Positions 1,385-13,358 of a stretch of 64,000 nt of DNA are shown here, in pieces. The position numbers were made by a program, and so were the translations under genes. The DNA comes from an uncultured Eubacteriales bacterium. Its GTDB lineage: Bacteria; Bacillota; Clostridia; Christensenellales; Aristaeellaceae. The stretch's first letter is position 1; every line of letters starts with the position of its first letter. The notes beneath the pieces were generated by a model. It worked only from the letters and a program-made list of their open reading frames with translations. It did not search any database and was not told where the DNA came from. The stretch is from assembly GCA_902789795.1 (NCBI GenBank), contig CADAPM010000002.1, positions 1-64,000 of the forward strand, written 5' to 3'.

Positions 1385-2101
1385 ATGAAGCCCTTGATCG
1401 GATTAACACCGTCTATCAGTGACAATAAAAAGCTGCTGAACATGAACCGCGATTATATGGATGCGGTACAGCGCAGCGGGGCGCTGCCGGTGGTGCTGCC
1501 CGCGACGGACGACGAGAGCGTGCTGTCGGCGATCTATGACCGGCTGGACGGGATCGTGTTTACGGGTGGGGCCGACCTGGTGCCGGCTTTGTATGGGCAG
1601 GAGACGCTGCCGGTTTGCGGCAGCACGGAGCCGATCCGGGACGCCCTGGAAATGTACCTTATGAAGCGGTGCCTTGAGGATGGGAAGCCTTTGCTGGCCA
1701 TCTGCAGGGGTTTTGAAGTGCTGAATGTCGCCCTGGGCGGCACGCTTTACCAGGATATCGAGACCCAGAGGCCCGATTCCCTGTTCCACCCTTGCTATGA
1801 TACGCCTGCGGCTCAGGTGCATGCGGCCAGCCTGGTTCCGGACACACGCCTGATGGATATCATGGGCATGAAAGAAATCCGGGTCAATTCCCGCCACCAT
1901 CAGGGGATCTGCGAGGTCGGCAAGGGACTGACCGTGTCCGCGTACGCCAGCGACGGGCTGATCGAAGGCCTGGAGCTGCCCGATCATCCTTTCGCGGTCG
2001 GCATCCAGTGGCATCCGGAGACGCTGTCCTCATTCGCGCCCGAAGAACAGGCGATCTTTAACGCTTTCAGGCAAGCCTGCGAGCCGAGGAATATAGGATG
2101 A
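1385..2101 (+). CDS. Class I glutamine amidotransferase-like hydrolase (gamma-glutamyl-GABA hydrolase family)
   Basis: The 238-residue protein has the layout of peptidase C26/PuuD-type amidotransferases. GITPSISD-like sequence lies at the N-terminus, the nucleophile elbow LLAICRGFEVLNVALGG supplies the catalytic Cys, and the QWHPE motif near residue 200 supplies His and Glu. Such enzymes hydrolyse gamma-glutamyl amide bonds, for example gamma-glutamyl-GABA in putrescine degradation, but no other putrescine genes are nearby, so the substrate is open. GGAGG at 1372-1376 fits the ATG at 1385. The stop overlaps the next start (ATGA), which implies translational coupling to the phosphoesterase. 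Confidence 0.85.
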   Translation: MKPLIGLTPSISDNKKLLNMNRDYMDAVQRSGALPVVLPATDDESVLSAIYDRLDGIVFTGGADLVPALYGQETLPVCGSTEPIRDALEMYLMKRCLEDGKPLLAICRGFEVLNVALGGTLYQDIETQRPDSLFHPCYDTPAAQVHAASLVPDTRLMDIMGMKEIRVNSRHHQGICEVGKGLTVSAYASDGLIEGLELPDHPFAVGIQWHPETLSSFAPEEQAIFNAFRQACEPRNIG

Positions 2102-2819: not shown

Positions 2820-3533
2820 ATGCCCAGGAAGATCATCATTACCGGCGGTTCATCGGGCATTGGCGAGGCGCTGGTACGTCGGTTTGCATCCGAAGGCTGG
2901 ATCGTGGCGTTTACGTATCTGCACCACGAAGCGGAGGCGAAAAGGATCGCCGATGAAACCGGCGCGCTTTGCTATCGCTGCGACAATAACGATCCGGAGA
3001 GCATCAGGATGGCGGCTGAAAAGATCCTGAAGCTCCTGCATCGGCCGGATGGGCTGATCAACAATGCGGGCATCGCCCAAAAGAGCCTGATCGAAGAAAT
3101 GAGTCTGGGGGAATGGGACGCCCTGATGGGGGTCCATCTGCGGGGCGCGTTCCTCTGGACGAAGGCGCTGTTGCCTGAGCTGCGGGAAAGCGGCGGAGCG
3201 ATCCTGAATATCGCCTCGATCTGGGGGCAGACCGGCGCATCCTGTGAGGCTGCATATTCGGCGGCAAAGTCGGGCCTGATCGGTCTGACGAAGGCCCTGG
3301 CGAAGGAGGCCGCGCCGGACGTGCGCGTGAACGCCATTGCTCCGGGCGTCATTGAAACGCCGATGCTCGACTGTTATACAGAGGATGAACTGGACGCAAT
3401 GCGCAGCAGCATCCCGCTGGCCTGCCTTGGAAAGCCGGAGGACGTGGCAGGAGCAGCCAGCTTCCTGATGTCCGATGCGGCGGCCTACATCACGGGCCAG
3501 GTCCTGGCGGTCAACGGCGGCTTATACTGCTGA
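2820..3533 (+). CDS. SDR-family NAD(P)-dependent oxidoreductase (FabG-like)
   Basis: A classical short-chain dehydrogenase of 237 residues. It has the Rossmann motif GGSSGIGEA at the N-terminus, NNAGIAQ at the end of beta-4, and the catalytic Ser and Y-x-x-x-K (IASIWGQ..., AYSAAKSG). A PGVIETPM segment and the terminal GQVLAVNGG are typical of FabG-like 3-oxoacyl reductases. The context gives no fatty-acid genes, so a specific FabG role is not claimed. It is the last gene of the three-gene cassette. A CGGCAG/CTGCCG hairpin at 3539-3554 follows but has no T-tract. Confidence 0.8.
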   Translation: MPRKIIITGGSSGIGEALVRRFASEGWIVAFTYLHHEAEAKRIADETGALCYRCDNNDPESIRMAAEKILKLLHRPDGLINNAGIAQKSLIEEMSLGEWDALMGVHLRGAFLWTKALLPELRESGGAILNIASIWGQTGASCEAAYSAAKSGLIGLTKALAKEAAPDVRVNAIAPGVIETPMLDCYTEDELDAMRSSIPLACLGKPEDVAGAASFLMSDAAAYITGQVLAVNGGLYC

Positions 3534-3606: not shown

Positions 3607-3635
3607 TTGACAAAGAATGCTTATGTGGGTACAAT
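3607..3635 (+). promoter_or_regulatory. Promoter of the aromatic amino acid operon
   Basis: TTGACA (3607-3612) and TACAAT (3630-3635) are separated by exactly 17 bp. Transcription should start near 3642, just upstream of the leader-peptide ribosome site AAAGGAG at 3653-3659. Confidence 0.85.
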
Positions 3636-3667
3636 GATTTCGAATCTGACGCAAAGGAGCGGCGCGC

Positions 3668-3751
3668 GTGAAGAACGGAACCTCAAGTGCTTATTATTAC
3701 TTTAGCTTTGCCGGGTATGAGCTGGCAAGGCATTTTGGGGTTGGCCGCTGA
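3668..3751 (+). CDS. Tyr/Phe-rich leader peptide of the aro operon attenuator
   Basis: A 27-codon frame starts with GTG and has AAAGGAG (3653-3659) 8 nt upstream, a full-strength ribosome site. The peptide has a core Tyr-Tyr-Tyr-Phe-Ser-Phe (codons 9-14), then Tyr17 and Phe23. That is four Tyr and three Phe with no Trp, which fits the end products of the downstream genes. The stop codon (3749-3751) lies within the sequence that would form the antiterminator, so a ribosome reaching the stop would cover it. A 7-bp hairpin (3706-3712 with 3724-3730) inside the reading frame could act as the pause hairpin. The function is inferred from this architecture; it is too short to be recognised by homology. 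Confidence 0.85.
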   Translation: MKNGTSSAYYYFSFAGYELARHFGVGR

Positions 3752-3800
3752 GGGCACTGAGTTTTATTGCAGCCCGCGGTTGATCCGCGGGTTGTTTTTT
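3745..3800 (+). promoter_or_regulatory. Attenuator: competing antiterminator and rho-independent terminator
   Basis: The terminator is a 9-pair stem, 3771-3779 with 3785-3793, around a TTGAT loop and followed by TTTTTT at 3795-3800. The left arm can instead pair upstream: CCGC (3745-3748) with GCGG (3776-3779) and GGGC (3752-3755) with GCCC (3772-3775), leaving the leader stop codon as a 3-nt bulge. A ribosome stalled at the Tyr/Phe codons would leave 3745-3755 free to form the antiterminator. A ribosome at the stop codon would block it and let the terminator form. This lies directly before the aroF ribosome site. Confidence 0.8.
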
Positions 3801-3817
3801 ATGGGGAGGGAAACAGA

Positions 3818-4843
3818 ATGATCGTTATCCTGAAGGAGCATCCGAATCCGAAACAGTTGGAAAACCTGAAGGCCTGGCTGACCAGCATGGGCCTGAAGAT
3901 CCATGAGAGCGACGGCGTCAACCATCAGATCCTCGGTCTGGTAGGCGACACCTCCAGGGTGGACATCGACCTGATCCAGGCCCTGGATATCGTTGAAAAC
4001 GTCAAGCGCATCCAGGAGCCCTATAAGAACGCGAACCGGAAATTCCATCCCCTCGACACCGTCGTCTCTGTGGGTGATGCCAAGCTGGGCGGCGGCAACT
4101 TTTCTGTCATCGCGGGCCCCTGCTCGGTAGAGAGCGAAGAACAGATTATCTCTATCGCCAAGGCCGTGAAGGCCGCCGGCGCGACGATGCTCCGCGGCGG
4201 GGCGTTCAAACCGCGGACTTCTCCCTACGCCTTCCAGGGCCTGCGCGCCACGGGGATCGAATTGCTGCTGGAGGCGAAGAAGGAGACCGGACTCCCCGTG
4301 GTCACTGAGATCATGGACCTGAGCCAGCTCAGCCTGTTTGAGGACGTGGATGTCATTCAGGTGGGCGCACGAAATATGCAGAATTTTGAGATGCTGCGGG
4401 AGCTGGGGCATCTGCACAAGCCGATCCTGCTGAAGCGCGGCCTCGCCAATACTTTACAGGAGCTCCTGATGAGCGCTGAGTATATCATGTCGGGCGGGGA
4501 CTGTGACGTGATCCTCTGCGAGCGCGGCATCCGCACGTTTGAAACCTATACCCGCAATACGATGGATATTTCGGCGATTCCCGCCCTGCACACCCTCACG
4601 CACCTGCCGGTCATTGCGGACCCCAGTCACGCTACGGGCCGCAGCTCCATGGTGGCTCCGATGGCGTATGCTGCCACAGCTGCGGGAGCAGACGGCCTGA
4701 TCATAGAAGTCCATAACGACCCCCAGCACGCGCTGTGCGACGGACCCCAATCGCAGACGCCCGAGGAGTTCAGCGCGACCATGGAAAAGATCCGGCAGAT
4801 CCGTTCCCTGCTGTTTGATCAGGACGGAGGGCAGAAAGCATGA
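3818..4843 (+). CDS. aroF: 3-deoxy-7-phosphoheptulonate synthase (DAHP synthase, type I-beta)
   Basis: The enzyme condenses phosphoenolpyruvate with erythrose 4-phosphate, the first step of the shikimate pathway. The 341-residue product has an N-terminal ferredoxin-like/ACT-like regulatory domain of about 90 residues (starting MIVILKEHPNPKQL), as in Thermotoga-type enzymes. The TIM barrel follows, with GPCSVES, the substrate-binding LRGGAFKPRTSP and DPSHATGR. The ATG at 3818 is preferred because GGGAGGG lies 8 nt upstream; a longer frame would run back through the terminator hairpin. The regulatory domain suggests feedback inhibition by Tyr or Phe in addition to transcriptional attenuation. 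The stop overlaps the tyrA start. Confidence 0.95.
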   Translation: MIVILKEHPNPKQLENLKAWLTSMGLKIHESDGVNHQILGLVGDTSRVDIDLIQALDIVENVKRIQEPYKNANRKFHPLDTVVSVGDAKLGGGNFSVIAGPCSVESEEQIISIAKAVKAAGATMLRGGAFKPRTSPYAFQGLRATGIELLLEAKKETGLPVVTEIMDLSQLSLFEDVDVIQVGARNMQNFEMLRELGHLHKPILLKRGLANTLQELLMSAEYIMSGGDCDVILCERGIRTFETYTRNTMDISAIPALHTLTHLPVIADPSHATGRSSMVAPMAYAATAAGADGLIIEVHNDPQHALCDGPQSQTPEEFSATMEKIRQIRSLLFDQDGGQKA

Positions 4844-5685
4844 TCGTCGGGATCGTAGGCTTGGGGCTGATCGGCGGTTCCATGGCCCGGGCTGTCAAAA
4901 ACGCTGGTTTTACAGTCTACGGTGACGATATCGACCGCACGGTGTTACTGAAAGCCCAGATGCTGGAGATCGTGGATCAGCCGCTCACCGATGAGAATAT
5001 CGGTAGCTGCTCGGTGATCATCCTGGGCATCTATCCGGGAGCCACTTTGGAATGGCTCAGTTCCCACGCGCCTTATATCAATCAGGACACGGTGGTCATG
5101 GACACCTGCGGCGTCAAAAGGGCGGTCTGCTATAAGGCTTGGGAGATCGCGGAACAGCATGGCTTTACCTTTGTGGGTGGGCACCCGATGGAAGGGGCCG
5201 CGAAGATCGGCTTCAACTATTCCAACCCGGCCATGTTCCAGAAGGCTTCCATGATCCTGTGCCCCAAAGCGGATATCACCCTTGAAAAGATGAAGGTCCT
5301 CAAGGACGTGCTGGACGCCGCCGGCTTCGGCAGGTATGAAATGACGACGCCAGAGCACCACGACGAAATGATCGCCCTGACCAGCCAGCTGGCGCACGTA
5401 GTGTCCAGCGCTTACGCCATGGCGCCGAACTGCAGGGCCCATAAAGGCTACTCCGCTGGCAGCTTCAAGGATATGACCCGGGTCGCATACCTGAATGAAA
5501 CGATGTGGACGGAGCTGTTTCTGGATAATCGCGAAAACCTGCTGAACGAGCTGGGGGGCCTGATCGGCAGGCTCAGCGAATACCTGGATGTGCTTGAACG
5601 GGGCAAAGCGGACGAGCTGCGTTCGCTGCTGGCGAAGGGACGCAGGTGTAAAGAGATCATGGACGCGGAGGCGGCCGAGAAATGA
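4840..5685 (+). CDS. tyrA: Prephenate dehydrogenase
   Basis: Oxidative decarboxylation of prephenate to 4-hydroxyphenylpyruvate for tyrosine. The 281-residue protein begins with the NAD-binding GLGLIGGSMARA and contains the conserved GGHPMEGA and TPEHHDE segments of the TyrA family. It ends after the all-helical dimerisation domain and has no C-terminal ACT domain, so it may not be Tyr-inhibited directly; control may rest on aroF and attenuation. The start overlaps the aroF stop (ATGA) and the stop overlaps the aroB start, so translation is coupled. Confidence 0.93.
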   Translation: MIVGIVGLGLIGGSMARAVKNAGFTVYGDDIDRTVLLKAQMLEIVDQPLTDENIGSCSVIILGIYPGATLEWLSSHAPYINQDTVVMDTCGVKRAVCYKAWEIAEQHGFTFVGGHPMEGAAKIGFNYSNPAMFQKASMILCPKADITLEKMKVLKDVLDAAGFGRYEMTTPEHHDEMIALTSQLAHVVSSAYAMAPNCRAHKGYSAGSFKDMTRVAYLNETMWTELFLDNRENLLNELGGLIGRLSEYLDVLERGKADELRSLLAKGRRCKEIMDAEAAEK

Positions 5686-6731
5686 GAAGGATCCTGATCG
5701 ATACCGATCCCGCATATACCGTGAATATCGGCGTGGGCCTGATCGAACGGCTGGGCAGCTCGATCCAGGAGCTTGAAAAGCAGCCGGAAAGTGTCATGAT
5801 CGTCACGGATTCGACGGTCGGCCCGCTCTATGCTAAACAAGTCCAGGATGCGCTCAGCCATTATCACACGATCGTTCATACCTTCCCGGCAGGGGAAGCA
5901 CACAAGACGCCGGAAACGCTGTTGGGCATCCTGCGAGCGATGGCCCAGCATGAGCTGACCCGCAGCGACCTGGTGCTGGCCCTGGGCGGCGGCGTGGTCG
6001 GGGATATGGCGGGTTTCGCCGCGGCGGTGTTCCAGCGGGGTATGCGGTTTATTCAGTGCCCCACGACCTGGCTCAGCGCGGTGGATGCGTCGGTCGGCGG
6101 TAAAACGGCGGTGGACCTGCCCGAGGGAAAAAATATGATCGGCGCGTTCCATCAGCCGGCCATGGTGGTCTGCGACGTCGAGACCTTTAAAACCCTGCCG
6201 GAGCTGCGCTTTGCAGACGGAGCGGCTGAGATGATCAAGCATGGCGTGATCGCATCTCCGGAGCTGTTCGCGAGGATGAAGGATCTCACCTGGCGGCTCG
6301 ATCCCGAGACCACGGTGGCCATGAACGTAGAGATCAAAAGATCTTTTGTCCTCGGTGATGTCCACGATCAGGCTGACCGGCAGATGCTGAACTTTGGACA
6401 TACCATCGGACATGCAATAGAAGCCTGGAGCGATTTCAAGCTGTCCCATGGTCAGGCCGTGGCGATCGGCATGGTCATGGAGACCCGCGCCGCCAGGAAG
6501 CTCGGCTTGAGCGATCTTGATGAATCGGAATTGATCGCTGTCTTAAACAAAAACGGCCTGCCGACAGAGACGGAAGCGTCGTCGGAAGAGATCCTGGAGT
6601 TTGCGCTGCACGACAAGAAGCGCAGGTGTTCGGGCGTGACGGTGGTCATACCGGAAAGGATCGGCCGGGCGAGACTGCAGACGCTTGACATGGAGACCTT
6701 CAAGCGATATATCGAGGCGGGAAGATCATGA
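5682..6731 (+). CDS. aroB: 3-dehydroquinate synthase
   Basis: Converts DAHP to 3-dehydroquinate with NAD and a divalent metal. The 349-residue length is typical. Visible signatures are the NAD-binding LALGGGVVGDMAGF, the PTTWLSAVDASVGGKTAVD segment, the metal ligands in GAAEMIKHG and the NFGHTIGHAIE motif, and the late DKKRR. It overlaps tyrA upstream and aroA downstream by 4 nt each, within the aro operon. Confidence 0.96.
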   Translation: MRRILIDTDPAYTVNIGVGLIERLGSSIQELEKQPESVMIVTDSTVGPLYAKQVQDALSHYHTIVHTFPAGEAHKTPETLLGILRAMAQHELTRSDLVLALGGGVVGDMAGFAAAVFQRGMRFIQCPTTWLSAVDASVGGKTAVDLPEGKNMIGAFHQPAMVVCDVETFKTLPELRFADGAAEMIKHGVIASPELFARMKDLTWRLDPETTVAMNVEIKRSFVLGDVHDQADRQMLNFGHTIGHAIEAWSDFKLSHGQAVAIGMVMETRAARKLGLSDLDESELIAVLNKNGLPTETEASSEEILEFALHDKKRRCSGVTVVIPERIGRARLQTLDMETFKRYIEAGRS

Positions 6732-7993
6732 GAATACGGATCACGCCATTCAGGGCAGAAGGCTGCACCGCGGTGCCCTCCTCCAAATCCGAGCTGCACC
6801 GCCTGCTGATCGCCGCGGCCCTATCGGATCGGCCCACGCTGATCCGCTGCAGGGGCATCAGTGACGACGTCGCCGCGACGGTCGATTGCCTCAAAGCGCT
6901 TGGCGCAGGGATCAAGAACCAGGTTGACGGTCTGCTGGTCGAACCGATCAAAAAGGCGGCAGTCATCGGATCCGCAGCCCTCAATTGCAGGGAGAGCGGC
7001 TCCACCTTCCGCTTTCTGCTCCCGGTCGCGGCGGCCCTTGGGGGCGCTTCGTTCACCGGGAGCGGCAGACTGCCCAGCCGCCCGGTGGTGGACCTGGTCA
7101 AGGCCATGAAGGAGCATGGAGCGGCCTTTTCAGCTGATCAGCTGCCCTTCACGGTGACCGGTCCTTTGGCCGGAGGCACCTTTGAACTGCCCGGCAACGT
7201 CAGCTCCCAGTACATGACCGGTCTGATGCTCGCCGCGCCGCTGATGGGCGAAACGAGGATCAGGATCCTCGGGCAGCTGCAATCCATCCACTATGTACAG
7301 ATGACGGCGGATGTGATGTCCAGGTTTGGCGTTTCGGTCTCCATCTCTTCTGACAGCATTGTGATCGGGAAAGGACAGACCTATCAGAGCTCCGGAACGG
7401 TCGATGCTGAAGGGGATTGGTCCGCCGCGGCTTTCCCAGTTGGTTTGGGTGCTCTTGGCGGCCCGGTCACGGTCGAAGGTCTCAGACTAAAGTCTATCCA
7501 GGGGGACAGCGGGATCCTGGAGATCATGGAGGCAGCAGGCGCGCGGATCGAAAGCGGTGAGCACTCTGCGACTGTGACGGGAAAACCCGTTGCCGGGTTG
7601 ACGCTGGATGTATCTGATATCCCGGATCTGGTGCCGGTTCTGGCGGCTGTATTCATGCACGCGAAGGGAGAAACCGTATTTTCGCATGCAGAGCGCCTTC
7701 GCCTGAAGGAATCGGATCGCCTGCAGACGACATGCGACATGGTGAACGCCCTGGGCGGTCAGGCGAGCATCGTCGGCGATTCGCTCTGCATCAGGGGCTC
7801 TGATCACTGCAGCGGCGGGACCGTCAACGGCGCAGGCGATCACCGGATCGTGATGGCGGCATTCGTCGGTGCCAGTGCCTGTAAGGGGGCGAGCGTGATC
7901 GAAGGGGCAGAGGCCGTCAAAAAGTCATGGCCGTCTTTCTTTGAAGATATGAAAAGGATCGGAGGCGTGTTCGATGTCATCGATGTTCGGTAA
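6728..7993 (+). CDS. aroA: 3-phosphoshikimate 1-carboxyvinyltransferase (EPSP synthase)
   Basis: Transfers the enolpyruvyl group of PEP to shikimate 3-phosphate. The 421-residue protein shows the two-domain inverse-barrel family features: SKSELHRLLIAAAL at the N-terminus, the NCRESGSTFRFLLPVAA active-site segment, SSQYMTGLMLAAP, and LRLKESDRL near residue 330. The segment corresponding to the E. coli loop around Gly96 reads ESGSTFRFL. The frame runs on past the aroC start, with a 20-nt overlap. Confidence 0.95.
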   Translation: MRIRITPFRAEGCTAVPSSKSELHRLLIAAALSDRPTLIRCRGISDDVAATVDCLKALGAGIKNQVDGLLVEPIKKAAVIGSAALNCRESGSTFRFLLPVAAALGGASFTGSGRLPSRPVVDLVKAMKEHGAAFSADQLPFTVTGPLAGGTFELPGNVSSQYMTGLMLAAPLMGETRIRILGQLQSIHYVQMTADVMSRFGVSVSISSDSIVIGKGQTYQSSGTVDAEGDWSAAAFPVGLGALGGPVTVEGLRLKSIQGDSGILEIMEAAGARIESGEHSATVTGKPVAGLTLDVSDIPDLVPVLAAVFMHAKGETVFSHAERLRLKESDRLQTTCDMVNALGGQASIVGDSLCIRGSDHCSGGTVNGAGDHRIVMAAFVGASACKGASVIEGAEAVKKSWPSFFEDMKRIGGVFDVIDVR

Positions 7994-9053
7994 ACGGTTG
8001 AGGGTCTCCCTGTTTGGCCAATCCCATGGCGAATGCATCGGCTGTGTGATCGACGGGCTGCCCGCCGGTGAGCCGATCGATCTGGAGGCCCTTCAGGCCT
8101 TCATGCAGCGGCGCGCCCCGGGCGGGGCCTATGCGACCAAACGCAAGGAGAGCGATACCCCGCATATCGTTTCAGGGCTGTACAACGGGCACACCTGTGG
8201 CGCGCCCTTGACTGTTTTGATCCAGAACAGTGATACGGTTTCCAGGGACTACGACCAGCTGAAGGACCAGCCGCGCCCGGGGCATGCGGATTATCCCGCC
8301 GAGGTCAAAAACCGCGGTTTTCAGGACCATCGGGGCGGAGGCCACTTTTCGGCGCGGCTCACAGCGGCTCTGGCTGCGGCAGGCGGCATTTGCCTGCAGA
8401 TCCTCGCCCGAAAGGGTATTCACGTAGGCGCACACTTGTTTTCTGTGGGCGATGTGATGGACCAGCCCTTTGATCCGCTGAAGGTCTCCATGGCAGATTT
8501 TGACCAGGCCAGGACCGGTTTTCCCACCCTGTCGGAAGAAGCGGCGGAAAGCATGAAGGGCGTGATCGATGCTGCGCGGGAACAGCTGGATTCCGTCGGC
8601 GGCATCGTGGAATGTGCGGTCATCGGCATGCCGGTGGGCATCGGGGAGCCGGTGTTCGACGGGATTGAGAATCAGATCGCCCAGGCTGTCTTTGCAATCC
8701 CCGCGGTGAAAGGGATCGAGTTCGGCGAGGGTTTTGCCTGCGCTAAAATGAAGGGTTCAGAGAACAATGATCCCTATATGTGGCAGGACGGGAAAACCAT
8801 GCTGGGCAGCAACCATGCGGGAGGGATCCTCGGCGGGCTCACGGACGGTGCGCCGATCCTATTCCGGGCCGCTTTTAAGCCGACGCCATCCATCGGCCTT
8901 TCCCAGCACACCGTCAGTTTGAGCGCCAGGAGAGACGCGATTCTGGAGATCACCGGCCGCCACGATCCCTGTGTTGCGGTCCGGGCGGTGCCCGTCGTAG
9001 AGGCCGCCGCGGCGCTGGCTGTACTGGATATGATCCTGATGCGGGAGGATTGA
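7974..9053 (+). CDS. aroC: Chorismate synthase
   Basis: Makes chorismate from EPSP by an anti-1,4-elimination that needs reduced FMN. The N-terminal motif FGQSHGECIGCVIDGLPAG, the RPGHADYPA segment and the GGxxSARLTAALAAAG segment are characteristic, and the 359-residue length is normal. The ATG at 7974 has GGAGG at 7960-7964. An ATG three codons later is possible but less well spaced. The 20-nt overlap with aroA indicates coupled translation. No flavin reductase domain is fused, so the enzyme is probably monofunctional. Confidence 0.95.
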   Translation: MSSMFGKRLRVSLFGQSHGECIGCVIDGLPAGEPIDLEALQAFMQRRAPGGAYATKRKESDTPHIVSGLYNGHTCGAPLTVLIQNSDTVSRDYDQLKDQPRPGHADYPAEVKNRGFQDHRGGGHFSARLTAALAAAGGICLQILARKGIHVGAHLFSVGDVMDQPFDPLKVSMADFDQARTGFPTLSEEAAESMKGVIDAAREQLDSVGGIVECAVIGMPVGIGEPVFDGIENQIAQAVFAIPAVKGIEFGEGFACAKMKGSENNDPYMWQDGKTMLGSNHAGGILGGLTDGAPILFRAAFKPTPSIGLSQHTVSLSARRDAILEITGRHDPCVAVRAVPVVEAAAALAVLDMILMRED

Positions 9054-9055
9054 AT

Positions 9056-10177
9056 ATGGAATTGAGTGAATTGCGCGAAGAGATCAATCAGGTCGACGCG
9101 AAAATGCTCCCCTTGTTCCTGAAAAGGATGGAGTTGGGCAAGCAGATCGGCGAAGTCAAGAAGGCCCTGGGCCTGTCCGTCTACAACGCCAAGCGCGAGC
9201 GCGAGATCCTGTCCTGGGTGACCCGTGAATCGGGGGATATGGACACTTACGCGCGGCTATTTTTCAACAATATGTTCGAGCTTTCCCGCTCCTATCAGTC
9301 GCAGCTGATCTCCGAAGCGGGGGAAAGTCAGTTCCCGGAAGCGGGCAACGAGACTTTCCCGCAGGCAGCGGTCGTCGCCTGCCAGGGGGTGGAAGGCGCC
9401 TATTCGCAGCTGGCAGCAGATAAGGTCTTCCGCTTTGCGGACATCGTCTACATGAAAACCTTCGATGGCGTTTTCCAGGCGGTGGAAAAAGGCCTTTGCC
9501 GCTTCGGCGTCCTCCCGATCGAAAACAGCGCGCACGGTTCCGTGACTAAGGTGTACGACCTGATGCGGAGCCACAAGTTTTCCATCGTGCGGGCGGTCAA
9601 GCTGCACATCGATCATCACCTGCTCGCAAAAAAGGGAGCGCAGCTCAGCGATATCCGGACCATCCTGTCCCATGAGCAGGCCCTGGGGCAATGCAGCGCC
9701 TTCCTGGACAGCAATAAAAACATCCAGATCCGGGTGTGCGAGAATACGGCTGTCGCCGCGCGCATGGTTTCTGAATCGGATGATCCGACGCTCGCCGCCA
9801 TCTCCTCGGAGGAATGCGCGCGCCAGTACAGTCTGGATATTCTGAAATCCCATATCCAGAATACGGACAACAACTATACCCGCTTTATCGTGATCGAAAA
9901 AACGCCGAAGGTCTATCCCGGCTCCAACAAGATCTCCCTGATGTTCAGCCTGCCGAACACGCCGGGCTCCCTGGGCCGGACCCTGGCGCAGTTTACGACC
10001 GGCAACCTGAACCTTTCCAAACTGGAATCGCGCCCCGTGGAGGGGACGGATTTCCATTATGTGTTCTATACGGACCTGGAGGCCAGCGCGGACGATCCGG
10101 CGGTCCGCAGGCTGATCAACAGCATGAGCACGGAATTGCCCATGTTCACTTTTCTCGGCGCATATCAGGAGGTTTAG
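9056..10177 (+). CDS. pheA: Bifunctional chorismate mutase / prephenate dehydratase (P-protein)
   Basis: Three modules are visible. An AroQ-type chorismate mutase helix bundle covers about residues 1-90 (LREEINQVDAKMLPLFLKRM). A prephenate dehydratase domain covers about 105-285, with the GVEGAYSQLAA start and the TRFIVIEK threonine motif. A C-terminal ACT domain carries ESRP, the phenylalanine-binding motif of P-proteins. The enzyme leads from chorismate to phenylpyruvate and should be inhibited by Phe. The ATG at 9056 is chosen because GGGAGGA (9043-9049) is 6 nt upstream; a TTG at 9050 would be too close. It lies just after the aroC stop. Confidence 0.93.
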   Translation: MELSELREEINQVDAKMLPLFLKRMELGKQIGEVKKALGLSVYNAKREREILSWVTRESGDMDTYARLFFNNMFELSRSYQSQLISEAGESQFPEAGNETFPQAAVVACQGVEGAYSQLAADKVFRFADIVYMKTFDGVFQAVEKGLCRFGVLPIENSAHGSVTKVYDLMRSHKFSIVRAVKLHIDHHLLAKKGAQLSDIRTILSHEQALGQCSAFLDSNKNIQIRVCENTAVAARMVSESDDPTLAAISSEECARQYSLDILKSHIQNTDNNYTRFIVIEKTPKVYPGSNKISLMFSLPNTPGSLGRTLAQFTTGNLNLSKLESRPVEGTDFHYVFYTDLEASADDPAVRRLINSMSTELPMFTFLGAYQEV

Positions 10178-10183
10178 TTTTTC

Positions 10184-11431
10184 ATGGCGTATTACCTGAT
10201 CGGGCATCCGCTGGGCCACAGCTGTTCGCCTGAACTGCACAGCTACTTTGGGAACGATGATTATTCCCTGCGCGACCTCCAGGAGAACGAGCTGAAGGAC
10301 TTCATCCAGCAGGGGAACTTTGACGGCCTGAACGTGACGATCCCTTTCAAGACCCGTGTCGCGGCTTATATGGATGTGCTGAGCCCCCGCGCCCGGGAGA
10401 CCGGAGCGGTGAACACCGTCGTCCGTACCCGCGACGGCAGGCTTATGGGGGACAATACGGATATCGACGGCATGGAGAGCCTGATCCGCAGCGCGTGCAT
10501 CGAGCTGGAAGGCAAGTATGTGCTGATCCTCGGCACGGGCGGTACGGCGCATACCGCGAACTATATCGCGCATAAGCACGGCGCTTCCAAGGTCGTCCAT
10601 GTCTCCCGCACCGGGAGCATCCATTATCAGAACGTCTACGAAGAATGTGCGGATACAGAGATCCTGATCAATACGACCCCGGTCGGCATGTATCCGGACC
10701 TGGATGGACAGGCAGTGGATCTTGAGCGTTTCGGGAAGCTGGAAGCGGTGATCGACGTCGTATACAACCCCCTTAGGACGGCGCTGACCCAGCAGGCCAG
10801 GAGACTGGGGATCCCGCATGCGAACGGCCTTGCCATGCTGGTCGAACAGGCGAAGGCCGCGGAGGAGTTATTCTTCGCCCGCACCATCACTGAGGAAGAA
10901 TCGAAAGCCGCCTATGACCGCCTGCTGCGTCGGCATACCAATATCGTGCTGATCGGGATGCCGGGGAGCGGCAAGACCAGTGTGGGCAAGCTGCTGGCCG
11001 ACCAGATGGGAAGGAAATTTTACGATACTGACCAGATGATCGTCGACGCCTGCGGGATGGAGATCCCCGCCATCTTTGAGCAGTATGGCGAAGCCTATTT
11101 CCGTGAGAGGGAAACGGAGGCGGTCAAAAAAGCCGCCGGAAACCAGGGCGCGATCATCGCGGTGGGCGGCGGCGCACCGATCTCTGAAAAGAATAAAGAT
11201 TATCTGCGCAGGAACGGCCGGATCTATCTGCTGGAGCGTTCCTTATCACAGTTGGACCGTACGGGACGACCGCTTTCGAGCTCCGCGAAGGTGCTCGAGA
11301 AAATGTTTGTGGCGCGGATGCCCCATTACCTGGAGCTGGCGGATCAGTCGGTCAGCAATCATGAAACGATCGAACACTGCGCACAGCTGATCGGGGAGGA
11401 TTTTCATAATTATGCGAGTATTGGTGATTAA
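10184..11431 (+). CDS. aroEK: Fused shikimate dehydrogenase - shikimate kinase
   Basis: One 415-residue frame carries two consecutive pathway enzymes. Residues 1-250 are shikimate dehydrogenase: GHPLGHSCSPELH, NVTIPFK with the catalytic Lys, GAVNTVV, GDNTDIDG and the NADP-binding LGTGGTAHT. From about 252, shikimate kinase begins (IVLIGMPGSGKTSVGKLL, Walker A), followed by DTDQMI and VGGGAPI. The linker is short and helical (EEESKAAYDRLLRRH). No stop or frameshift separates them, so this is a genuine fusion rather than two genes. It would reduce 3-dehydroshikimate and phosphorylate the product. The end overlaps aroQ by 20 nt. Confidence 0.93.
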   Translation: MAYYLIGHPLGHSCSPELHSYFGNDDYSLRDLQENELKDFIQQGNFDGLNVTIPFKTRVAAYMDVLSPRARETGAVNTVVRTRDGRLMGDNTDIDGMESLIRSACIELEGKYVLILGTGGTAHTANYIAHKHGASKVVHVSRTGSIHYQNVYEECADTEILINTTPVGMYPDLDGQAVDLERFGKLEAVIDVVYNPLRTALTQQARRLGIPHANGLAMLVEQAKAAEELFFARTITEEESKAAYDRLLRRHTNIVLIGMPGSGKTSVGKLLADQMGRKFYDTDQMIVDACGMEIPAIFEQYGEAYFRERETEAVKKAAGNQGAIIAVGGGAPISEKNKDYLRRNGRIYLLERSLSQLDRTGRPLSSSAKVLEKMFVARMPHYLELADQSVSNHETIEHCAQLIGEDFHNYASIGD

Positions 11432-11840
11432 CGGCCCGAACCTGAATATGCTCGGGATCCGTGAACCGGCGGTGTACGGCAGACGTACGTTCTCCGATCT
11501 GGAGGAGTATATCCGCAGCGAAGCAAATAAGCTCAATATCGAAGTCTCTTTGTATCAATCGAATCACGAGGGTGATCTGGTGGATAAGATCCAGGAGGCT
11601 CTGAATCAGTATGACGGGATCCTGATCAATCCCGCGGCTTATACCCATACCTCTGTCGCGATCCTGGATGCGCTTAAGGCGGTGCAGCTGCCGACGGTGG
11701 AGGTCCACCTGTCTGATATCAACGAAAGAGAGCCCTTCCGCCGGTTCTCTTACGTTTCCCTTTACGCGCAGAAGACGATCTACGGGAAGGGATTCGAAGG
11801 ATATGCGGAAGGGCTCACGTGGCTCAAGGAGAACTGCTGA
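11412..11840 (+). CDS. aroQ: Type II 3-dehydroquinate dehydratase
   Basis: The 142-residue enzyme dehydrates 3-dehydroquinate to 3-dehydroshikimate. Family signatures are INGPNLNMLGIREPAVYG with the catalytic Tyr, the NPAAYTHTSVA segment and EVHLSDINERE with the active-site His. GGGGAGGA at 11394-11401 lies within the end of aroEK. It is the last gene of the aro operon. Its stop is only 3 nt from the stop of a gene on the other strand, and no terminator is evident in between. Confidence 0.95.
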   Translation: MRVLVINGPNLNMLGIREPAVYGRRTFSDLEEYIRSEANKLNIEVSLYQSNHEGDLVDKIQEALNQYDGILINPAAYTHTSVAILDALKAVQLPTVEVHLSDINEREPFRRFSYVSLYAQKTIYGKGFEGYAEGLTWLKENC

Positions 11841-11843
11841 GCT

Positions 11844-13358
11844 TTACCAGGAGGCTTTCAGGGCCTTTTGGATGGCGGCCTGGTGCGCCGCGTCCACGAC
11901 CTTGGTGGAAGAGGTCGTGCTGCCGGTAAAGTGGATGCAGAACTGTCCGTCAAAGTTGTTGTCCTGGATGCTGTAATCCCCGTGGGGCTCGCCGTACATA
12001 CTGCCTGCGTATACGTGCCCGTTGTACTTGACCAGTACGGGACGGCGGACATAATTGATCGTGCCGCCATAGGCGGATTTCATGATAGCGGTATCAGAAG
12101 CCGTCAGAGGCTCGGCGTCGAGATGATTGCCGGCGTAGAGGCGTTTACAATTCCATACTTTGCCGGAGCCGACGTCCTTGACCTGGAAGGTGGCGCCGGC
12201 TTTAAAAATGCTCTTGCCGGCACTGAACCAGTCGAGATTCTCCGTGCCATTGCTGGATACCGCGGGCGTGGCGGTCTTCTTAGGCGTGGGTGTGGCCGTC
12301 TTCTTGGGAGTAGGCGTTGCGGTTTTCTTAGGAGTAGGAGTCGCTGTCTTCTTGGGTGTGGGTGTTGCAGTCTTCTTAGGAGTAGGTGTGGCCGTCTTCT
12401 TCGGAGTGGGCGTTGCGGTCTTCTTTGGTGTGGGTGTCGCGGTCTTCTTGGGGGTTGCAGTCTTCTTGGGGGTAGGCGACGGCGTCGGCTTGAAGTTGGC
12501 CGCGTCTTTACCGAACAGCTTCTTGATGGTCGCAAAATCCGCCTGGCCGGTCTGGGTCAGCTTAGAAGCTTTTTGAAACGCCTTGACCGCCGCGACGGTG
12601 GCATCGTCAAATCTGCTGTTGATGGCCGGATGGTATAAGCCCTTGATCTTCAGCGCCTGCTGGAGGGCCAGCACGTTTTTTCCGGTATTTCCCTTTCTCG
12701 TGGTGGTGGGAACGGTGATCTGGGAGATCTTGGTGATCCCATTCATTTTGGGATCTGTCTTCACCGTCGTCGCGTTGGCCGCATCCTTGCCGAACAGCTT
12801 CTTGATCGTCGCATAGTCCGCTTCGCCTGTCTGGGTCAGCTTGACAGCCTTCTGATAGGCTTTGACCGCATCTACAGTGGCGTTGTCGAATTTGCTGTTG
12901 ATCGGCGGCTTATAGTAGCCCTTGATCTTCAAAGCCTGCTGCAGGGCCAGCACGTATTTGCCGCTGTTTCCCTTTTTCGTCGTTTTCGGTACAGCGATCT
13001 GGGAGATCTTGGTGATCCCGTTCATCTTGGGATCATTCTTGACCGTCGTCACCTCAGCCGCGGCAAGGGCTTTAGCGGAAGCGGACGGGAGACTGACCTT
13101 GGTTTTCTGGATATATCCGGTCTTTTTGTTGTAAGTGGCCTTATAGAAATTTCCCGTGAGCGCGCTGACCTCGACCTTGACACCCTTTTTCAGAGTCAGC
13201 ACGGTTTTGCTGGTCGTTGACGCGGCGGAATACATGATGACGTTATTCGCGTTGATGGTGCCGGTATAGGTTTTTGCCGCATCAGCAGCCAGGGGAATGG
13301 ATGTAAACAGCATGACCAGAATGGTCAAAACGATCAGCAGACGCTTGTGATTGCGCAT
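11844..13358 (-). CDS. Secreted SH3 / peptidoglycan-binding repeat protein
   Basis: The 504-residue protein has a signal peptide (residues 1-28, ending AADA), a bacterial SH3 domain (about 35-95) and two peptidoglycan-binding type 1 domains (about 130-195 and 225-290, each with LALQQALKIKG and AVKAYQK/AVKAFQK). A Pro-Thr-Lys linker made of about nine PKKTA repeats follows. The C-terminal domain (about 380-504) has conserved-looking NHLDAEPLT, RRPVLV, GEPHG, NNFDGQFCIHF and a final VDAAHQAAIQKAL. Similar C-terminal domains occur, from memory, in clostridial cell-wall proteins, but no enzymatic function is known to me. The Cys-Ile-His triplet is the best catalytic candidate. It probably acts in the cell wall. 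It is transcribed leftward from its own promoter. Confidence 0.8.
   Translation of the reverse strand: MRNHKRLLIVLTILVMLFTSIPLAADAAKTYTGTINANNVIMYSAASTTSKTVLTLKKGVKVEVSALTGNFYKATYNKKTGYIQKTKVSLPSASAKALAAAEVTTVKNDPKMNGITKISQIAVPKTTKKGNSGKYVLALQQALKIKGYYKPPINSKFDNATVDAVKAYQKAVKLTQTGEADYATIKKLFGKDAANATTVKTDPKMNGITKISQITVPTTTRKGNTGKNVLALQQALKIKGLYHPAINSRFDDATVAAVKAFQKASKLTQTGQADFATIKKLFGKDAANFKPTPSPTPKKTATPKKTATPTPKKTATPTPKKTATPTPKKTATPTPKKTATPTPKKTATPTPKKTATPTPKKTATPAVSSNGTENLDWFSAGKSIFKAGATFQVKDVGSGKVWNCKRLYAGNHLDAEPLTASDTAIMKSAYGGTINYVRRPVLVKYNGHVYAGSMYGEPHGDYSIQDNNFDGQFCIHFTGSTTSSTKVVDAAHQAAIQKALKASW
12263..12486 (-). repeat. Tandem 24-bp repeats encoding the TPTPKKTA linker
   Basis: Nine copies of a unit containing gtcttctt on the + strand (Lys-Lys-Thr on the coding strand) follow each other, mostly at 24-bp spacing with one 18-bp unit. 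Third codon positions differ between units while the peptide is kept, so the array looks maintained by selection on the protein rather than freshly amplified. Confidence 0.9.

Follow-up and report, generated by a model that had tools for sequence, protein, structure and literature searches.

A probable tyrosine- and phenylalanine-sensing leader-peptide attenuator before the shikimate operon of an uncultured member of the Clostridia, and its relatives in the phylum

The shikimate (aro) operon of an uncultured Eubacteriales bacterium of the Aristaeellaceae is very probably preceded by a ribosome-mediated transcription attenuator whose signals are charged tRNA-Tyr and tRNA-Phe, the two not being separable by sequence. 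Ribosomes stalled at a leader rich in tyrosine and phenylalanine codons probably switch the operon on. The locus lies in the window, by which we mean the whole stretch of 64,000 nucleotides that was analyzed (positions 1 to 64,000 of contig CADAPM010000002.1, assembly GCA_902789795.1). By computation, the aromatic codons are conserved, the helices are conserved and covary, and the availability of the antiterminator arm follows the position of the ribosome. An initial annotation of this DNA had read the region as a leader-peptide attenuator, and this reading is supported in that relatives conserve both the Tyr/Phe codons and the pairing. Judged from sequence matches, the family is larger and more varied than that finding suggested.

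The locus, which lies entirely on the forward strand, begins with a sigma-70/SigA-type promoter, TTGACA-17-TACAAT, at 3607-3635, which carries 11 of the 12 consensus bases. An 801-base promoter scan of both strands returned two sites with at least 9 of 12 bases, compared with a mean of 0.5 in shuffled sequences. Besides the window's own genome, aroF was detected in three of seven genomes of the same genus, and in all three (L002-L004) the promoter hexamers and the 17-base spacing are identical to those of the window. The ribosome-binding site of the leader gene, AAAGGAG at 3653-3659, stands 8 bases before the GTG start codon at 3668. The leader gene itself (3668-3751) has 27 codons and a stop, and its translation, MKNGTSSAYYYFSFAGYELARHFGVGR, contains four Tyr, three Phe and no Trp around the core Tyr-Tyr-Tyr-Phe-Ser-Phe; the core of L002, YYYFSFAG, is the same as in the window. 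Downstream, at 3769-3800, is an intrinsic terminator in which 3769-3779 pairs with 3785-3795 to form an 11-pair stem, with 8 of 11 pairs G-C, a loop at 3780-3784 and a T run to 3800. The consensus promoter, strong ribosome site, 27-codon leader with four Tyr and three Phe, and rho-independent terminator before aroF that the initial annotation had claimed are therefore all present.

Two further structures complete the arrangement. The hairpin P1, which had been overlooked, was found by folding within the leader codons at 3705-3731 and joins 3705-3714 with 3722-3731 in 10 pairs; by analogy, it would be the counterpart of the 1:2 hairpin in classical attenuators. The left arm of the antiterminator (3738-3755) is composed of GGGTTGGCCGC, the bulged stop TGA and GGGC, and it pairs with 3772-3786. 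The best duplex, at -25.1 kcal/mol, joins 3738-3748 with 3776-3786 (11 pairs) and 3752-3755 with 3772-3775 (4 pairs), and the leader stop codon at 3749-3751 forms the bulge. Antiterminator and terminator share the left arm of the terminator, and the antiterminator additionally takes up the terminator loop. The alternative pairing first proposed at 3745-3755 is thus real but incomplete, as the arm starts at 3738 and the loop takes part. When compared with shuffled sequences, 3739-3800 folds with a z of -2.59 (4 of 200 shuffles as good) and 3700-3800 with a z of -3.43 (1 of 200), while 3655-3775, without the right arm of the terminator, folds no better than shuffles (z -0.77, 46 of 200 as good).

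From this arrangement we infer where transcription starts, how the leader is translated and ribosomes stall on it, and how termination and the physiological response come about, as follows. Transcription would start near 3642, with a ribosome trailing RNA polymerase across the leader. With Tyr and Phe plentiful, the ribosome would get to the stop codon at 3749-3751 and cover the antiterminator arm, 3738-3755, such that the terminator at 3769-3795 would fold and transcription would end near 3800. With charged tRNA-Tyr or tRNA-Phe scarce, the ribosome would stall at codons 3692-3709 and P1 could not form. The free arm would then pair with 3772-3786, that is, with the left arm and loop of the terminator, before the right arm is made, and the polymerase would go on to transcribe aroF and the genes after it.

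The operon downstream of the attenuator comprises eight genes on the forward strand, from aroF to aroQ, and ends at 11840. The first gene, aroF (3818-4843), encodes DAHP synthase (NF006421, 477.2 bits, and TIGR01361, 387 bits, both over cut-off) and is followed by a tyrA-like prephenate dehydrogenase gene (4840-5685) that matches NCBIfam models with E down to 1.4e-43, below their cut-offs. Next are aroB (5682-6731; TIGR01357), aroA (6728-7993; TIGR01356) and aroC (7974-9053; TIGR00033), each over cut-off, and pheA (9056-10177), assigned to chorismate mutase-prephenate dehydratase with the dehydratase model NF008865 over cut-off and the chorismate mutase models below. An aroE-aroK fusion (10184-11431) matches shikimate dehydrogenase (E 1.1e-44) and shikimate kinase (8.4e-29) on two parts, below cut-offs, and aroQ (11412-11840) encodes a type II dehydroquinase (TIGR01088 over cut-off). 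The assembly, which is 88% complete, has no trpE or trpB match; if this absence is real, Tyr and Phe would be the sole aromatic amino acids made by the pathway, fitting a Tyr/Phe leader without Trp. As to the neighbors of the operon, an SDR reductase is encoded upstream at 2820-3533, with a best match to the EF-P 5-aminopentanone reductase YmfI of 226.2 of 238 bits, below cut-off, and on the minus strand at 11844-13358 is a gene for a secreted-looking protein in which repeats and a long ATPTPKKT stretch were seen by eye.

The operon might instead be controlled by a T-box or another tRNA- or ligand-binding riboswitch, with the leader open reading frame being incidental. T-boxes are common in this lineage: of the 60 genomes searched, 59 have one or more, and the window's genome has nine matches (E 0.001). 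One of the latter, C2:197009-197242, lies outside the window on the same contig, directly before a leuA-like gene (197293-198654; gene match below cut-off), so T-boxes and the leader attenuator would coexist in one genome as two tRNA-sensing systems. However, no Rfam family, T-box RF00230 included, reaches its gathering score over the window leader, and the six matches with E up to 10 are all weak; the best has 21.7 of 50 bits (Leu_leader), and Trp_leader, at 14.7 of 41 bits, is likewise below its gathering score. Aromatic codons, moreover, are enriched in the leader frame only, and a riboswitch at this position is scarcely credible.

The case for attenuation by a leader peptide draws on conservation among relatives. 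Of 100 genomes searched for aroF, 68 had the gene, including that of the window, and 30 loci were kept. One contig scan gave at least 580 more loci, of which the best 80 were added. By aroF, the closest named relative is an uncultured Clostridiales bacterium (91% identity). The resulting 110 loci gave 102 distinct full-length aroF upstream regions. A leader, defined as an open reading frame preceded by a ribosome site and holding at least four Phe/Tyr within 8 residues, was called in 85 of the 102 regions, in 0 of 102 reverse strands and in 45 of 2040 first-order Markov shuffles. Of the 17 missed regions, at least four hold clear Tyr/Phe leaders with an atypical ribosome site; the covariance model R1 introduced below matches these four at 83-116 bits (L055, L087 and L100) and 44.6 bits (L022). 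When 20 aroF loci in which no leader had been called were searched for known RNA families, none was found, and 10 further loci gave only a single tRNA.

After four duplicates and L075, which has no called terminator, were left out, 83 distinct leaders with a terminator remained. Their 2433 residues include 387 Phe and 320 Tyr (707 together) and 7 Trp, and Phe/Tyr codons make up 30.1% in frame compared with 7.5% and 14.7% in the shifted frames; because these leaders were chosen for aromatic content, the fair measure is the count of 85 in 102 with its controls. At the four codons before P1, which lie outside the three counted helices, Phe or Tyr occupies 34, 30, 36 and 38 of 42 sequences, and the two residues swap for each other. 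The N- and C-terminal parts of the leaders diverge, the aromatic core and the RNA pairing are kept, and the antiterminator arm may sit inside the open reading frame or past its stop. Among the carriers of a related leader is a named organism, Oscillibacter valericigenes Sjm18-20 (L103). The initial annotation had staked its reading on relatives keeping the Tyr/Phe codons and the alternative pairing, and they keep both.

These patterns also bear on the idea that the leader gene makes a small protein serving some function of its own, or that the terminator attenuates constitutively, the Tyr and Phe residues reflecting a membrane-type peptide. The leader does look like an ordinary open reading frame with a good ribosome site, yet its divergent ends around a kept aromatic core and kept RNA pairing, and the variable position of the arm relative to the stop codon, speak against this idea. 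The sensor codons of most related switches described below also fit the amino-acid gene downstream, the MFS gene at L165 not evidently so, and we regard the small-protein explanation as highly unlikely. Three loci carry taxonomic titles from outside the phylum, Oligosphaeraceae (L039), Lentisphaerae (L041) and Lentisphaeria (L043); they have aroF at about 72% identity and a Tyr/Phe leader scoring 45.6-54.5 bits with R1, and either the gene and switch were transferred to another phylum or the contigs are mis-binned.

Alignment A2 was made from 42 of the 83 distinct leaders, picked by eye for a common architecture, a choice that favors the counts of consistent pairing that follow. P1 is paired in 96.8% of cells and shows two-sided changes at 5 of 9 pairs; the terminator is paired in 95.8%, with such changes at all 11 counted pairs. 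Together these two helices have a covariation score of 0.501 compared with 0.232 when shuffled, and the consensus fold of A2 recovers both unaided. In the antiterminator, the last part of the leader pairs with the 3' half of the terminator left arm and with the loop, and 84.0% of cells are paired compared with 75.8% in shuffles and 26-49% when the arm is slid by 1-3 columns. The covariation score of the antiterminator is 0.290 compared with 0.183 (0 of 500 shuffles as high), and 38 cells are doubly changed compared with 17.1 in shuffles. The number of pairs changed on both sides (6 compared with 5.6; 298 of 500 shuffles as high) and that of further pair types (21 compared with 18.7; 68 of 500) are close to those in shuffles. 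The antiterminator thus exceeds shuffles on three of five measures, and its covariation is weaker than that of P1 and the terminator. Pairing between columns 72 and 161 fails in 13 of 39 sequences, and columns 157-161 are common to the antiterminator and the terminator.

Duplex energies across the wider set of leaders point the same way. A leader's own arm-terminator duplex averages -18.8 kcal/mol, compared with -14.7 when swapped and -13.1 when shuffled, although no more than 28 of the 83 loci have an own pairing that outdoes 95% of the swapped leaders, and the median rank is 0.11. It is very improbable that Rho, polarity or translational coupling to aroF accounts for most of the leader's effect in place of the alternative helices. 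Such effects of leader translation are compatible with the sequence, but between leader and aroF stands an intrinsic terminator whose left arm is complementary, in the 42 sequences, to each of its two partners.

The switch between alternative helices was also followed in a folding model in which the transcript was folded once the left arm and loop had emerged, after removal of everything up to 12 bases past the first base of the A-site codon. For the window, 11.9-13.3 antiterminator pairs form with the ribosome at the core Tyr/Phe codons (12.8 as the core figure), compared with 0.4 with the ribosome at the stop codon. Any ribosome position from codon 2 to 21 gives 11-13 pairs, so the model separates early from late ribosomes and does not single out the Tyr/Phe codons; 10.1 pairs form with no ribosome, although P1 is conserved, and the model therefore does not predict termination of untranslated RNA. 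Of the 83 leaders, 81 form more antiterminator pairs for a ribosome on the core than for one on the stop, with a margin above 3 pairs in 74, and for a ribosome on the core 80 form more than without any ribosome, with a margin above 3 pairs in 52. L003, L057, L067, L080 and L094 show little difference between core and stop, and fragment length alone explains part of the difference overall. With the ribosome at the core, shuffled arms form 8.3 pairs compared with 12.2 for real arms, and against 20 shuffles per locus the real arm ranks at 1 in 20 or better in 48 of the 83 loci. Within the computation, the position of the ribosome would decide between antiterminator and terminator.

The reach of the family was explored with R1, a covariance model built from A2 and so from aroF leaders, whose E-values are rough and whose matches above about 1e-4 need inspection. 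Up to E 10, the only match in the window's genome is the window copy. Counting the window's genome each time, R1 matches occur within the order in 61 of 297 genomes (at E 0.01, where the weak matches are partly due to chance), in 23 of 391 genomes drawn from the class (1e-4) and in 9 of 398 drawn from the phylum (1e-4). A set of 52 matched loci (L111-L162), which includes the window and some places used to build the model, has by tblastn aroF downstream in 45 and pheA in 3; among the remaining four are leuA with the leader MKSQFSAQLNLLNLALLLQG, ilvB with the leader MLSFIAAIVIIISISVIVLLVDSVHYNVAEIG and a TrpX-like ABC substrate-binding gene (match below cut-off) with the leader MKRYYGIANYWFWFSFTMRHSKVDL. 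The fourth, L139 (R1 E 1.2e-6), showed no leader. Twenty weak matches (E 1.3e-6 to 2.1e-3) were fetched and their genes named by eye from the protein start, giving three aroF, six ilvB, of which five places were confirmed, and one MFS gene; the other ten look like chance terminators. The MFS gene, at L165, has an Ile/Val leader and a best family match to an L-lactate transporter just below cut-off, so its codons and cargo are not evidently matched. In the phylum draw, L279 is an ilvB locus with Val codons and L281 a leuA locus with Leu codons.

Putative attenuators for other amino acids were thus found, by R1 or by an ilvB search, before ilvB (L187-L189, L195, L197, L209, L135 and L279), leuA (L148 and L281), pheA (L158, L159 and L161) and transporter genes (L137 and L165). 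Their sensor codons are Ile/Val/Leu for ilvB, Leu for leuA and Phe for pheA, and fit the downstream gene except at L165. At least six Ile/Leu/Val within 8 residues occur in 9 of 30 ilvB upstream regions, compared with 1 of 30 reverse strands and 4 of 300 shuffles. Leu and Trp leaders were not enriched over controls in 30 leuA and 27 trpE upstream regions of the order, and re-targeting is therefore not general before these two genes. Some terminators in these leuA and trpE regions appear T-box-like by eye.

With a weight matrix for the hairpin-to-arm segment, 8 of the 19 non-aroF loci outscored every one of the 170 controls, and one genus supplied five of these eight. None of the other 11 exceeds the highest control: L190, L200, L209 and L137 score above 96-98% of controls, and L194, L201, L135, L281 and the three pheA loci are unremarkable. 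Among aroF leaders outside A2, only 11 of 41 exceed the highest control. Common descent with the aroF leaders is likely for the eight high-scoring loci, and convergence is possible for the other 11. We lean slightly toward a single homologous scaffold, shared by Clostridia with further classes of the phylum, that would have been re-targeted by exchange of sensor codons: Tyr/Phe for aroF, Phe for pheA, Ile/Val/Leu for ilvB, Leu for leuA, Trp/Tyr/Phe for the TrpX-like transporter and Ile/Val for the MFS gene. The hairpin-to-arm segment (consensus GGTAAGGCTTATTTGGGTTTGGCTGAA) is kept in part of these loci, and serial duplication may have occurred. In genome G971 (L280, about 1480-1790, reverse strand), two Phe-rich leader-plus-terminator units, with the leaders MYNNFVFSNSFFSFTNFFSKVI and MNNLHNSTISFVFFFGFVFFTRLC, stand in series before one aroF, and R1 matches both; for the MYNNFVFSNSFFSFTNFFSKVI leader the string list gave no ribosome site, and AAGGGG was seen by eye.

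Classical ribosome-mediated attenuators are those of the enteric trp, pheA and his operons. Like them, the window has a leader gene rich in codons for the end product, a 1:2-like hairpin, an antiterminator, a terminator and a biosynthetic operon downstream. Unlike them, it is found in the Bacillota and places Tyr and Phe codons jointly over a whole shikimate operon; its P1 (to 3731) and antiterminator arm (from 3738) are adjacent rather than overlapping, and its antiterminator uses the terminator loop.

Leader peptides have been described elsewhere in this phylum. The ilv-leu operon of S. aureus has a leucine-rich attenuator peptide with reporter and mutant support (PMC5794164); likened by its description, it is also a case of leader-peptide attenuation in the Bacillota, for other amino acids and genes and in another class. 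Leader peptides with His codons are predicted before other genes in Firmicutes, namely bacillar hisS*/hisZ (PMC2965389) and, in a clostridium, hisZ of Clostridium difficile (PMC4833913). The uORFC-13-1 motif, with 24 representatives only from Acholeplasma and environmental sequences, is a proposed upstream open reading frame before aroF (PMC8632094). As described there, it shares with the window Phe codon(s), a ribosome site and a terminator, and it differs in that at least one Phe codon is specified and Tyr codons are not mentioned. In the Actinobacteria, the Corynebacterium ilvB upstream open reading frame, with Ile/Leu/Val leader codons, a terminator and an antiterminator (PMC11109978), resembles by its description the ilvB relatives found here. 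The words aroF, phenylalanine and tyrosine do not occur in the main text of that 50-genome survey (PMC11109978). Within an open-licence PubMed Central library, no account turned up of clostridial aroF genes preceded by Tyr/Phe leaders; the 2010 survey by Lopatovskaya and colleagues, cited in PMC4833913, could contain some. The initial annotation had taken aromatic genes in Firmicutes to be more often under T-boxes or TRAP. T-boxes do occur in the same genome, but leader peptides are less exceptional than it implied, as the published descriptions indicate (PMC5794164, PMC2965389, PMC4833913, PMC8632094).

The mechanism proposed here would thus be a classical one, in a phylum where leader peptides are already known, and the Tyr/Phe aroF family appears to be a well-supported addition to a known kind of regulator. 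Amino-acid genes in Clostridia are commonly assigned to T-boxes, to which this work would add a sizeable and comparatively supported family of leader-peptide attenuators. For the shikimate operon of many uncultured species, scarcity of charged Tyr- and Phe-tRNA becomes a testable means of control. If the ilvB, leuA, pheA and transporter relatives share ancestry with the aroF leaders, the specificity of these switches would change by codon exchange on an RNA switch that is itself kept.
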